46,608 nt of DNA, from positions 1 through 46,608 of the forward strand of contig DYOH01000017.1 in the NCBI GenBank assembly GCA_020720625.1, given 5' to 3'. Source of the DNA: Acetofilamentum sp. GTDB taxonomy: Bacteria > Bacteroidota > Bacteroidia > Bacteroidales > DYOH01. Position numbers and translations under genes: made by a program. Below the pieces are notes generated by a model that saw nothing but the letters and a program-made list of their open reading frames with translations, was not told where the DNA came from and did not search any database. Positions 5,152 to 41,062 of the stretch are shown one piece after another (the first letter of the stretch is position 1; the number at the start of each line of letters is the position of its first letter).

Positions 5152-5844
5152 TTACTCGGTAATGAGCTTATAACCTTTACCATGTACATTCAGAATTTGC
5201 ACATTTTCGTCGTCTTTAAGGTGTTTTCTTAGTTTGGTAATATATACATCCATACTTCTGGCATTAAAGTAGTTATCTTCTATCCAGATGGTTTTTAGGG
5301 CATGGTTTCTTTCTAACACCGAATTTACATTTTGTGCAAGCAATCTAAGTAATTCTGATTCTTTTGTGGTTAACTTTTCTTCGTAATCGTCTAGTTTTAG
5401 AATTTGTTTCTGGGCATCAAACTGGTATTTTCCTATTTGATAGGTGGTTTGAGATGCCGCCGATCCAATTTTTTTGGTCCGGCGCAGAATGGCTTCTAAG
5501 CGGAGCAGCAACTCCTGCATACTGAAAGGTTTGGTAATATAATCATCGGCACCGAGCGAAAATCCTTCGAAAATATCATCTTTCATTGATTTGGCAGTAA
5601 GAAAAAGCACCGGAATTTCGCTATTAACAGCTCTAACCTCCTTTGCCAAAGTAAATCCGTCTTTCAAAGGCATCATCACATCAAAAATGCATGCGTCGTA
5701 ATGCTGGTTCATAAAGGCTTTATAAGCCAATTCTCCGTTTTCGTATAAATCTGTATGATAATTTTTTGCATTTAGGTACTCTTTCAAGAGTGCGCCAAGG
5801 TTGATGTCATCTTCGGCTAGTAATATTTTAATTTTTGGTTCCAT
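5152..5844 (-). CDS. rprY: OmpR-family response regulator, RprY-like
   Basis: Two-component response regulator acting on DNA. The receiver domain (about 5-118) has the acidic pair EDD, phospho-acceptor Asp55 in FDVMMP, and Lys105 in DDYITKPFS. The C-terminal winged helix includes LTTKESELLRLLAQN, then NARSMDVYITKLRKHL and HGKGYKL. The sequence strongly resembles Bacteroides RprY as remembered; the symbol is by similarity. The frame is open upstream to 5904, but the ATG at 5844 (MEPKIKILLAEDD) is where family homology begins. It overlaps the kinase gene by 17 bp (5828-5844), so the pair is one operon with the kinase first. Likely targets include the divergent gene at 7566, see the TTAAC array. 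Confidence 0.9.
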   Translation of the reverse strand: MEPKIKILLAEDDINLGALLKEYLNAKNYHTDLYENGELAYKAFMNQHYDACIFDVMMPLKDGFTLAKEVRAVNSEIPVLFLTAKSMKDDIFEGFSLGADDYITKPFSMQELLLRLEAILRRTKKIGSAASQTTYQIGKYQFDAQKQILKLDDYEEKLTTKESELLRLLAQNVNSVLERNHALKTIWIEDNYFNARSMDVYITKLRKHLKDDENVQILNVHGKGYKLITE

Positions 5845-7423
5845 TTTGTTGTTTTTTATCTTTATTTTGACTGAAAGGTAATATAATTTTAAAAGTTGTG
5901 CCAATATTTGGAGTACTTTCTACATGAATTGTTCCGTTATGTTGTTCTACAACCTTTTTAACATAGCTTAATCCTAATCCAAATCCTTTGACATCGTGCC
6001 TGTTGCCGGTTGGAACCCGGTAAAATTTTTCGAATATTTTTTTTACGTCATCTTTCGACATCCCAATTCCTTTGTCCTGAATAGAAACAATAACCCCTTG
6101 TTTATTGTTGTGGGTAGTAATATTGATGTAGGGTTTTTCTCTGGAGTATTTCACCGCATTATCAAGTAAATTGAATAATACGTTTTTAAGGTGATGTTCG
6201 TCGGCATCAATTTCCGGATTTGGTGCATCAAGATGCAAGTGAATTTCGCCGTTTCTGTTCTGAATATTAATTCTAAAATTGTCGAGCACCGATTGGGCTA
6301 TTTCGTTTACATCAATTTTTTTTATTTTAAAATTGATATGCCCTTTATCGAAAGCTGCCATTTGCAGAATTTTCTCCACCTGATAACTCAATCGCTTTGT
6401 TTCGTCTTCGATTAACTGCGATAATTTGGGCGTATTTTTTATTTCTGCCGGTATTGAATCATCTTTTAGCATTTGAGTTGCCAAAAGCACTGTAGATATA
6501 GGGGTTTTAAGCTCGTGGGTCATGTTGTTTACAAAATCGTTTTTCATGTCGCCCAGTTTTTTTTGCTTAAAAATGATGACCAATGTTCCGGTAAAAATTC
6601 CCATAATTATTAGCATCAGAATAATAGACGAAGAAGCTATAGGGCCAAAAGTACCCAGAAGCGCCTTGGTTTTTTTGGGAAAATAGATGTGCAGATAATA
6701 AGGTTTGTTAAAAAAGTCGTTGCGAAATAGCATTACTTCATAACAATCTTCGTTAGAGCTTTTGGGAAAATTTTTCGATTTGTAAATCACCTGGTTATCG
6801 GCATTCCTTACCATATACTCAAAATCAACGGGTATACCGTTATTTTGTAAATCGCGCTGTATGATACTGCGCCAGGCATTGGTGTCGAAATTGTTTTCAA
6901 GTTTACTCTTTTCTGTGTTAATCATTTTATCTACAATGGCTTGCACAATTACAGCTTTCGACGAGGAATCATCGCCTACTACTTGTAATCTGCCGGTTTG
7001 CGGATTTAAAAAATAGGTTTTATCGTGGGCAATCGTATCGTAAATATTTACATAATCTTTGATAGAGTCGCTCCATAAATAAAGATTGGCTTCCGGACTT
7101 TTATTCGTTTTTAATATGCCTTTGGTGCCATCGTATTCAAATTTTATTTGAAAAGTATCGTTCGACGATTGTATTTGATATTCGAAATTGCTATTTACAA
7201 GATTGTTATTTTCGTTTCCATAGATGAAATTACTGCTCACGCTGTTCCAGGTGGTGTGTATTTCCAAATCGTTTATAACCTGAAATAAGGCCCTTCTAAC
7301 CATGTGGTCAAACTGATTCTGTCGTACAAACAAAGCACTTTTTATCCAAAAATACTGCACCATAATTAAGCCTAACATCGTAACTGCCATAATGATGGAC
7401 AATAACCAAATCCATTTTTTCAT
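5828..7423 (-). CDS. rprX: Sensor histidine kinase, RprX-like
   Basis: Membrane sensor kinase paired with the RprY-like regulator. After an N-terminal membrane segment (about 4-26) comes a periplasmic sensor region of roughly 230 residues with no domain I recognise, then a second membrane segment (about 263-285). The catalytic part follows directly, without an obvious HAMP: H-box MTHELKTPIS (phospho-acceptor near His303), N-box LFNLLDNAVKYS, G1 QDKGIGMSKDD, and GFGLGLSYVKKVV. The frame opens at TTG 7438, but ATG 7423 gives a normal membrane-anchor start (MKKWIWLLS). The 3' end overlaps the regulator by 17 bp. The promoter region is shared with the divergent gene at 7566. Confidence 0.9.
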   Translation of the reverse strand: MKKWIWLLSIIMAVTMLGLIMVQYFWIKSALFVRQNQFDHMVRRALFQVINDLEIHTTWNSVSSNFIYGNENNNLVNSNFEYQIQSSNDTFQIKFEYDGTKGILKTNKSPEANLYLWSDSIKDYVNIYDTIAHDKTYFLNPQTGRLQVVGDDSSSKAVIVQAIVDKMINTEKSKLENNFDTNAWRSIIQRDLQNNGIPVDFEYMVRNADNQVIYKSKNFPKSSNEDCYEVMLFRNDFFNKPYYLHIYFPKKTKALLGTFGPIASSSIILMLIIMGIFTGTLVIIFKQKKLGDMKNDFVNNMTHELKTPISTVLLATQMLKDDSIPAEIKNTPKLSQLIEDETKRLSYQVEKILQMAAFDKGHINFKIKKIDVNEIAQSVLDNFRINIQNRNGEIHLHLDAPNPEIDADEHHLKNVLFNLLDNAVKYSREKPYINITTHNNKQGVIVSIQDKGIGMSKDDVKKIFEKFYRVPTGNRHDVKGFGLGLSYVKKVVEQHNGTIHVESTPNIGTTFKIILPFSQNKDKKQQNGTKN

Positions 7424-7482
7424 ATTATTCTTTATCAATACATCACAAATGTAAATTATTTATTTCTGCAATTGGGCAGAGC

Positions 7483-7527
7483 TTAACAATCTTTAACCAG
7501 ACTTAAAACCTCTTAACTGTGCTTATT
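7483..7527. promoter_or_regulatory. Five TTAAC-type direct repeats at exact 10-bp spacing
   Basis: TTAAC occurs at 7483, 7493 and 7513, TTAAA at 7503 and TTATT at 7523. Each box starts exactly ten bases after the previous one, mostly preceded by C or CT. OmpR-family regulators bind tandem direct repeats about one helical turn apart, and an OmpR-family regulator gene lies in the adjacent divergent operon. The array ends two bases before the -7 element at 7530 and covers where a -33 element would sit, which suits an activator site for the 7566 gene. That RprY is the binder is an inference. Confidence 0.6.
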
Positions 7528-7529
7528 CT

Positions 7530-7537
7530 TACCTTTG
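7530..7537 (+). promoter_or_regulatory. Bacteroidota -7 promoter element TACCTTTG
   Basis: Exact match to the TAnnTTTG -7 consensus of the Bacteroidota housekeeping sigma factor, 28 bases upstream of the ATG at 7566. No good TTTG -33 element is present at the usual distance; that position is occupied by the TTAAC boxes, in keeping with an activator-dependent promoter. Confidence 0.6.
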
Positions 7538-7565
7538 CTAAACATCAATCTAAAATTTTTTGAGT

Positions 7566-8540
7566 ATGAAAAGAATGATTTATTTACTAGCATTGTCAGT
7601 AACTATAATACTGAATGCTAATGCGCAGGAGAATTTCGAGTATAAGGTAAGTATTACCAAGAATGGCCAGAAAGTTATGGACACCACATTTTCGTCTGAA
7701 AATGAAACCGGATTGGCCAAAGTTTTATTTAATGCCGGCGCAAAATCTATGTCGAAGAATATGAACAAGAATTTTGAGTGGAACAACGGCGATGTGTTAA
7801 AAGTTGTGGCTTTAGAAGAAGGTAAGCAAGTAAAAATGCTAAAAGTAACCGAAGGTGGAAACGACTCTTTAGTGCAAGAAATTTTGATTAAAGAGGTGCC
7901 CGAGAAAATTATTTATAAGGAAAATATTGGTGGAAATCAGCAGGCAGGCAGCCTGGAGGGAGCTCAAAAGAAAATTATCTGGGTAACTGAAGAAACCGAA
8001 GAAAATAATGAGGGTACTAAAACAAAAAAAATTATCATTAAAACAGCTGAAGAGGGCGAAGAGTTGGAGAATATAATGTTTTTTAATACCGAAACCGAAG
8101 GAAATGTGATAATTGAATTAAATGGAGAAAATGTAAATGTGGTAGAAAAAGAAGTTATTGTAAATAAGGTGAAATCAGGTAAAGGGGAGTATAATTTTGA
8201 GATGCGCTTGAATAATGGTCAAATTAGTATTGCCATGGTTTCGATGAGCAATGATGAAGCTTCTGCCTGTAAGCTTGCTAGTAATCAGAATTTTAATCCA
8301 TCAGAGTTAACTCTAAAATCGGGCAAGGAAGAATTACAGTATGTTTTAAGTTTTGAAACTAAGGAGAAAGCTATATTAGAGTTGCTTTTACTAGATGAAA
8401 GTGGTAATGAAATTCAGAATGAAACAATGAAAAAAGCCAATGAATTTGATTGCCAGTTGAACTTTCCGCAAAAAGGCAAATATACTTTATTGTTGAGGCA
8501 AAAGGACCAATCTCGTTTGTATAAGATTAAAGTTGAATAA
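7566..8540 (+). CDS. Secreted acidic protein of unknown function, divergent from rprXY-like operon
   Basis: I do not recognise the family. The N-terminus is a signal peptide (MKRMIYLLALSVTIILNANAQ), so the product is exported. The middle is rich in Glu and Lys with many beta-strand-like stretches. The last 80 residues (NPSELTLKSG, then LELLLLDESGNEI, GKYTLLLRQKDQ, YKIKVE) resemble in outline the beta-sandwich C-terminal domains of type IX-secreted proteins, but the match is loose. The frame opens at TTG 7560; ATG 7566 is preferred. It has a TACCTTTG -7 element, an upstream TTAAC array and a strong terminator, so it is a monocistronic and probably regulated gene. It may be an envelope protein controlled by the neighbouring two-component system. 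Confidence 0.7.
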   Translation: MKRMIYLLALSVTIILNANAQENFEYKVSITKNGQKVMDTTFSSENETGLAKVLFNAGAKSMSKNMNKNFEWNNGDVLKVVALEEGKQVKMLKVTEGGNDSLVQEILIKEVPEKIIYKENIGGNQQAGSLEGAQKKIIWVTEETEENNEGTKTKKIIIKTAEEGEELENIMFFNTETEGNVIIELNGENVNVVEKEVIVNKVKSGKGEYNFEMRLNNGQISIAMVSMSNDEASACKLASNQNFNPSELTLKSGKEELQYVLSFETKEKAILELLLLDESGNEIQNETMKKANEFDCQLNFPQKGKYTLLLRQKDQSRLYKIKVE

Positions 8541-8562
8541 TTATTGAAACTAGAAATACTAG

Positions 8563-8609
8563 AAATCGGTTGAATTTATCTTTCAGAAAAGTTCAACCGA
8601 TTTTTTTTT
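8563..8609 (+). terminator. Intrinsic terminator after the 7566 gene
   Basis: A 12-bp perfect stem, AAATCGGTTGAA (8563-8574) with TTCAACCGATTT (8592-8603), is followed by a run of T to 8609. It lies 22 bases after the stop codon. Confidence 0.9.
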
Positions 8610-8634
8610 GACACTATCCTAAAAAGTGTGTAAA
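8610..8634. repeat. Possible solo insertion-sequence end remnant
   Basis: GACACTATCCTAAAAAGTGTGTAAA, here split as GACACTATCC at the start and AGTGTGTAAA at the end, resembles terminal repeats of IS256-type elements, whose ends read TTTACACA...GTGTC in the other orientation. Only one end is present and there is no transposase. It also forms a weak hairpin (ACACT/AGTGT) and might simply be a short terminator for the convergent hbd gene. Confidence 0.25.
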
Positions 8635-8664
8635 GCCAATTTCTTCCGAAAATTCAATCGCAAG

Positions 8665-15577: not shown

Positions 15578-15916
15578 TTACTTGATTTTTATAAATTCCG
15601 AATTTTTTAGTTTCATTAAGGTTTCTGCCACTTTGTCGGATACTTGCAGAAAGCTAAAAATGCCCATAATACGTACAAAAAAATCATTTACAAAGTATAC
15701 CATGGAGTAAGCACTGTTTTCAAACTCCAGAAGGTATAAATCATTGTAGTTGCTTTTTTTACCAACATAGTTGTTTTTTTGAATAATGTGTAAATAGCTG
15801 TTTACCTCAGAAATAAACTTCAGTGTTTGTTCAGTATCATTTTCGGCCAAATAATCAACTATCTCGAATAAGTCGTTTTTGGCATCAGATGTAAGTACTA
15901 GTTTCCTGTTTGCCAT
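15578..15916 (-). CDS. RelE/ParE-superfamily toxin
   Basis: Predicted toxin of a type II toxin-antitoxin module, 112 aa, cytosolic. The N-terminus RKLVLTSDAKNDLFEIVDYLAEN has the ParE/RelE helix pattern, and LLEFENSAYSMVYFVNDFFVRIMGIFSFLQ matches the closing strands (Y-x-x-x-Y-F-V, I-x-G-I-F). Without structure comparison it cannot be decided whether it acts on gyrase or as a ribosome-dependent RNase. The ATG overlaps the antitoxin stop codon (TAATG arrangement), so translation is coupled. The module lies between two direct copies of a dispersed repeat. Confidence 0.7.
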   Translation of the reverse strand: MANRKLVLTSDAKNDLFEIVDYLAENDTEQTLKFISEVNSYLHIIQKNNYVGKKSNYNDLYLLEFENSAYSMVYFVNDFFVRIMGIFSFLQVSDKVAETLMKLKNSEFIKIK

Positions 15917-16254
15917 TAGTTTAAGTTTAATTCGTTAAGTTTCATATCAAGCTTTTTTTGTAATTGAGTTACAGAAAAATAGGCCATTTTGCCATTATTC
16001 ATTTTTTCAACTCTCTCGCTTAGCATCTGATTTTGAACATCTTTTAGTTCATCAAAAAACAATAGATTCTCCTTTGCTTTTTCTTCGGCAGATTGGGATA
16101 ATTTCTCTGCTTTTTTTTCTTTTGCTTCGGGTAATTCTTCTTTTTTCTGCCAATGCTCTTGTAAACTATCATAAATTTTTGTCAAAAATAGTTCTCTGTC
16201 TTTTGGAGGCAGTTCTAAAACAGATTTTAATAAATTTCTGGTTTCGTAGGTCAT
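15916..16254 (-). CDS. Putative antitoxin, addiction-module-component-like N-terminus
   Basis: First gene of the module, 112 aa. The N-terminus LLKSVLELPPKDRELFLTKIYDSLQ follows the LP-x-x-x-R-x-x-L...SL pattern of short addiction-module antitoxins (the TIGR02574 type). These are normally about 70-80 aa; here a long Lys/Glu-rich, probably coiled or disordered segment (about 36-65) precedes a C-terminal part (YFSVTQLQKKLDMKLNELN). The C-terminal part is the likely toxin-binding arm. No classic ribbon-helix-helix or HTH is seen, so how it controls its own promoter is unclear. ATG at 16254. Confidence 0.6.
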   Translation of the reverse strand: MTYETRNLLKSVLELPPKDRELFLTKIYDSLQEHWQKKEELPEAKEKKAEKLSQSAEEKAKENLLFFDELKDVQNQMLSERVEKMNNGKMAYFSVTQLQKKLDMKLNELNLN

Positions 16255-40950: not shown

Positions 40951-40958
40951 CCATCATA

Positions 40959-41062
40959 TTTTATAAAAGGGGTGCCTTAATACTACGGGCTGAGAATATA
41001 CCCATTGAACCTGATGCAGGTAATGCTGCCGCAGGGAGATGTAAGACGCCTCATTTTTTTTT
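40959..41062 (+). ncRNA. TPP riboswitch (THI element)
   Basis: The thi-box core is present: GGGGTGCC (40969-40976), CTGAGA (from 40990), ATACCC (40998-41003), then ACCTGATGCAGGTAATGCTG and CCGCAGGGA. Helix P2 is GGGTG with TATACCC, and the P4/P5 arm matches the consensus CCTGAT...GGTAATGC...GCAGGGA. A short P1 can form between 40959-40965 and 41040-41046. Thiamine pyrophosphate binding is expected to repress the downstream TonB receptor. A run of nine T (41054-41062) follows, 22 bases before the ATG. How ligand binding is read out is unusual, see the finding. Confidence 0.93.

Follow-up and report, generated by a model that had tools for sequence, protein, structure and literature searches.

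Four tandem TTAAC-type boxes at 7483-7517 of the window (the whole 46,608-nt stretch of DNA analysed here) very probably form an operator of the RprXY two-component system, one that serves two promoters: that of the rprX-rprY operon itself and that of a divergent gene. The array would supply a predicted binding motif for RprY, a regulator that is common in gut and oral Bacteroidota but little understood; no RprY binding motif was found in the literature we searched, subscription papers lying outside that search. It also puts a name to a candidate activator of the FopS small RNAs, a point left open by the 2025 discovery paper (PMC11697453).

The box array and its two promoters

The locus comprises the following features:
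5152..5844 (-): probable RprY, OmpR-family response regulator of 230 aa, its gene overlapping the kinase gene's 3' end
5828..7423 (-): membrane histidine kinase of 531 aa, rprX-like
7446..7453 (-): CAAATGTA (minus strand: TACATTTG), the -7 element for the rprX-rprY operon, 37 bp away from box 1
7483..7517 (+): array of four boxes, TTAACaatctTTAACcagacTTAAAacctcTTAAC, with a 10-bp period
7483..7497 (+): boxes 1-2 (TTAACAATCTTTAAC), the core retained even without a divergent promoter
7503..7517 (+): boxes 3-4, co-occurring with the divergent -7 element and standing in for its -33 element
7523..7527 (+): TTATT, the alleged fifth box, not conserved
7530..7537 (+): TACCTTTG, the divergent gene's -7 element, at +47 relative to box 1
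7566..8540 (+): gene for the 324-aa divergent secreted protein, which has a 'SITKNGQKVMDTTFSSEN' motif
8567..8609 (+): intrinsic terminator, CGGTTGAA...TTCAACCG plus a T run, belonging to the 7566 gene

Read directly, the boxes are TTAAC (7483), TTAAC (7493), TTAAA (7503) and TTAAC (7513), in exact 10-bp register, and 7483-7527 runs TTAAC aatct TTAAC cagac TTAAA acctc TTAAC tgtgc TTATT before TACCTTTG. The original prediction counted five TTAAC-type boxes; four do stand at exactly 10 bp, but the fifth, TTATT at 7523, is weak and unconserved: its position reads TCTTA in a relative of the same genus (G001), and its columns are nearly unconserved across 81 loci. An OmpR/PhoB-class operator typically consists of tandem direct repeats in a 10-11 bp register, at a fixed distance from a promoter without a -33 element; both traits are present here, the period being exactly 10 and the divergent -7 element lying at +47 from box 1 in 42 loci. 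This -7 element is of the TAnnTTTG type, and, in keeping with the earlier description of a -7 element that lacks a -33 partner, the aligned array loci hold no conserved -33 TTG for the divergent promoter; boxes 3-4 fill that region and end 12 bp before the -7 element. The kinase operon has a -7 element of its own at 7446-7453, which the earlier account did not include.

With one mismatch allowed, a pattern of four TTAA words at 10-bp steps has a single match in the 3.8-Mb genome, the 7483 array itself, against 28 matches per strand for the reversed control, and the genome search that had been proposed for further TTAAC arrays at this spacing returned none of this kind beyond 7483-7517. The shorter TTAACN5TTAAC is not enriched in the window's genome (16 matches, the reversed control giving 52), and that search brought out no clear regulon of the motif within the genome. 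Loose three-box arrays, with three mismatches, were not above chance in a window-wide search, and the strength of the case therefore lies in conservation.

Conservation upstream of rprX-like kinases

We surveyed 152 non-redundant upstream regions of rprX-like kinase genes from the same order, many of them in fragmented assemblies. In the same-genus relative, whose kinase and divergent protein are 74% and 43% identical to those of the window, the array reads TTAACaatctTTAACttcacTTAAAgtcagTTAAC, with TTACTTTTG at equal distance; the boxes are identical base for base, and much of the spacer around them differs. With the window's genus excluded, TTAAC-N5-TTAAC occurs within 150 bp in 78 of 150 regions, where dinucleotide shuffles give an expectation of 0.24; other box-pair spacings of 5-18 bp occur in 0-3 regions each and the opposite orientation in 8, and the larger counts at spacings of 19, 20, 22 and 25 bp may include third boxes. 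Within 170 bp, and with the window's genus included, the box pair is carried by 81 loci from at least 31 families of gut-type bacteria, at the same place upstream of the kinase gene, a favourable outcome for the suggested comparison of related genomes. Aligned on box 1, these loci give the consensus CAAAgaTA - 28 bp - TTAACAATCT TTAACATTCx TTAAAATTxG TTAAC - 12 bp - TAnnTTTG, the bases between boxes 1 and 2 (AATCT) being conserved too. The kinase -7 element is present in 79 of the 81, nearly always 35-37 bp from box 1, and an exact divergent TAnnTTTG lies 47 bp from box 1 in 42, any other offset being found at most once. A divergent -7 element accompanies boxes 3-4 in 41 of 42 loci and is present in 9 of the 39 without them (p=6e-13); several relatives are of recent common ancestry, for which a Fisher test of boxes 3-4 against the divergent promoter with one locus per family corrects in part (median p=9e-5). 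Given this co-occurrence, the array appears to be modular, boxes 1-2 going with the regulator operon and boxes 3-4 with the divergent promoter. Fixed -7 distances, the missing -33 element and conservation in relatives bear out the activator-site layout of the OmpR/PhoB class that was first proposed, and the foreseen control of both the 7566 gene and the rprXY-like operon is supported by the joint occurrence of the divergent -7 element and boxes 3-4 and by the fixed distance of boxes 1-2 to the kinase -7 element. The exact array is absent from 71 of the 152 rprX-like genes, the Bacteroides-like group among them, and no recognition-helix differences were found between the RprY proteins of genomes with and without it.

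In the relatives L013, L017 and L019 boxes 1-2 occur alone and the divergent -7 element is missing, so that they offer a ready-made contrast for the division of function. In two pairs of related genomes (L044/L045 and L066/L067), TTAACAATCTTTAAC is conserved before two other genes, one for a MSKVKYKFNKKSLTFDRV-type protein and one for a secreted protein with FYNGHQMDFGKNRVQY; these are possible further targets.

Products of the divergent promoter and FopS-like RNAs

The divergent product is a secreted protein in the window and in about ten relatives, and most of these proteins share a hydrophobic-x-K-x-G-K-V-x-D-T-T-F-like motif. Against Pfam and NCBIfam the 324-aa protein of the window gave sub-threshold noise only and no family, and its AlphaFold model, at pLDDT 37 from two sequences, is not usable. 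In many other relatives no long reading frame follows the divergent promoter; instead there is a 75-150-nt stretch that ends in an intrinsic terminator, with UUUUUUCAUAGG-UUU...UUUUAGGGUUA before the terminator. The Rfam FopS model (RF04319), derived from Bacteroides, independently matches this element beside rprX in three genomes (G008, G082 and G109) and also at L107, with 43.5, 38.1, 36.8 and 30.1 bits (the last at L107) against a gathering score of 56. An RNA model built from 21 rprX-linked RNAs (R1) in turn matches canonical FopS loci. The rprX-linked RNAs resemble FopS and are related to it by these reciprocal matches, and we call them FopS-like without filing them as members of RF04319. 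R1 also matched 11 of 60 further array loci and 3 of 71 kinase loci without the array, all three marginal; since R1 was trained on array loci, these counts are not independent of the array, whereas the Rfam matches are. The secreted-protein gene carries the RNA element in its 3' UTR at L128 (R1 E=4e-9) and, judged by sequence, at L023. R1 found no FopS-like element in the window's divergent transcript (7538-8650, 3' UTR included), and RF04319 has no match anywhere in the window's genome.

Arrays also stand before FopS-like genes unlinked to rprX. Among loci of this kind, 33 have a -7 element within 160 nt upstream of the RNA, and 12 of these, from about seven families, carry a TTAA-10-TTAA pair 26-28, 36-38 or 46-48 bp before the -7 element, in the same register as at rprX; shuffles gave 0.16 expected and never more than one. 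One of the 12 lies in the window's own genome, an array-bearing FopS-like RNA (L278, G000:C42:5004-5076) whose -7 element has a TTAAT-N5-TTAAC pair 48 bp upstream; it runs divergently from the gene of a second RprY-like response regulator, an orphan. At canonical FopS promoters of Bacteroides-like genomes, TTAA-10-TTAA is found in 17 of 56, centred near -63/-53, and other spacings in 0-4, which hints at a diverged form of the TTAA pair, some two helical turns more distant from the promoter.

Many canonical FopS promoters (L190-L205, L337, L338, L341) have a TATGTT-N4/5-AACATA inverted repeat immediately before the -7 element. The window's genome also has a tandem pair of FopS-like small RNAs at G000:C102:51693-52001 (L275 and L276; R1 45.7 and 43.9 bits), with neither a TTAA-10-TTAA pair nor TAnnTTTG in the 300 bp upstream.

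RprY as the candidate regulator

The regulator encoded at 5152-5844 matches NCBIfam RprY (NF051850) over its full length with 368.6 bits against a cut-off of 370, the next family scoring 177.9, and it shares an operon with an RprX-type kinase; the nearby OmpR-family protein first described as RprY-like is probably RprY. It is of the same family as RprY of Porphyromonas gingivalis and RprXY of Bacteroides; unlike in the systems described, the motif is one proposed here, and the known target nqrA is without it in this order. That gene is an RprY target by EMSA in Porphyromonas (PMC5706477), and no array was found upstream of it in about 20 loci read from genomes with the box array (22 were taken; L289 and L292, with a wrong start, were not counted).

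The absence of the array at nqrA would suit a reading in which a different OmpR-family regulator, such as the orphan RprY-like protein on contig C42, binds the array and controls rprXY and the small RNAs while RprY acts elsewhere. The RprY recognition helix RSMDVYITKLRK is common to other OmpR regulators, among them the one beside the array-bearing FopS-like RNA in the window's genome. Yet the array stands directly upstream of rprX in 31 families, a position where autoregulation by the encoded regulator is usual, and in P. gingivalis an EMSA showed RprY bound to its own promoter (PMC3646045); we hold another binder to be quite unlikely. RprY might also bind the array as a repressor of one or both promoters, the boxes blocking polymerase. 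Boxes 3-4 overlap the site where a -33 element would be, and the P. gingivalis protein has been proposed as a self-regulated negative regulator (PMC3646045). Repressor sites, however, need no fixed register, whereas exact spacing with an absent -33 element is the layout of a class II activator, and on the kinase side the boxes stand clear of the rprX promoter, upstream of it. The fixed distances and the missing -33 element thus favour activation, and repression is unlikely, if by no means negligible.

A third reading dispenses with a specific binder, the 10-bp phasing of TTAA arising from DNA bending, from A-tracts or by chance in an AT-rich sequence. TTAA is indeed a common word in this AT-rich genome, and the loose window test was not significant. 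Chance or bending would nevertheless have to produce 78 pairs in 150 regions against 0.24 expected, at one spacing and in one main orientation, with two -7 elements at constant offsets across 31 families and a conserved AATCT between boxes 1 and 2. The survey statistics already make this very unlikely, and we find it scarcely credible.

We infer, then, that RprY is the binder and that it activates. Phosphorylated RprY dimers would most likely bind the TTAAC boxes head to tail on one helix face; from boxes 1-2, upstream of the rprX -7 element, they would autoregulate rprXY, and from boxes 3-4, in place of the divergent -33 element, they would recruit RNA polymerase, as PhoB does from the pho box. 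The divergent product would be an effector of the response, as a secreted protein here, as a FopS-like RNA in many relatives or, in an alternative form, as a protein mRNA with a FopS-like small RNA in its 3' UTR. Envelope stress would be the signal, and mRNA start sites the presumed targets of the small RNAs.

Direct repeats of 5-7 bp in 10-11 bp steps also make up the PhoB pho box and the CpxR box; there the boxes nearest the promoter take the place of the -35/-33 element, and about 10-13 bp separate their end from the -10/-7 element. The window array is like them in its register and in replacing the -33 element, and unlike them in its sequence (TTAAC), in a -7 element of the Bacteroidota type TAnnTTTG and in that its four boxes serve two divergent promoters, with RprY as candidate binder. 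The arrangement of the locus recalls cpxP and cpxRA, in which a two-component operon and a secreted-protein gene are transcribed away from each other, even though no relation of the divergent protein to CpxP was found. The small RNA CpxQ is carried in the 3' UTR of cpxP (PMC4817254), and the divergent gene likewise ends in a small RNA at L128 and L023; unlike in cpxP, this RNA is absent at the window locus and stands alone in many relatives.

FopS RNAs are induced by bile salts, possibly via 'an unknown transcriptional regulator', and block translation at the start codons of SusC-type transporters (PMC11697453). The rprX-linked RNAs share with FopS of Bacteroides thetaiotaomicron (RF04319; PMC11697453) a seed of the UUUUUCAU...UUUAGGGUUA type with a terminator hairpin after it; unlike FopS, they score below the gathering threshold and many are longer at the 5' end. 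In array-holding genomes RprY is a good candidate for the FopS regulator. A broader proposal, which seems to us evenly poised, is that RprXY is the missing activator of FopS-type RNAs across Bacteroidales, TTAAC arrays switching on its own operon, the secreted protein and the dispersed small RNAs. If so, the latter would silence outer-membrane transporter mRNAs under membrane stress, and RprXY would correspond, in Bacteroidota, to the Cpx response and its small RNA CpxQ.

Elsewhere in the window, a TPP riboswitch at 40958-41054 (+) is the sole Rfam match (64.6 bits), and two short adjoining genes at 15578-16254 (-) resemble, from their appearance, a toxin-antitoxin pair of the RelE/ParE type.
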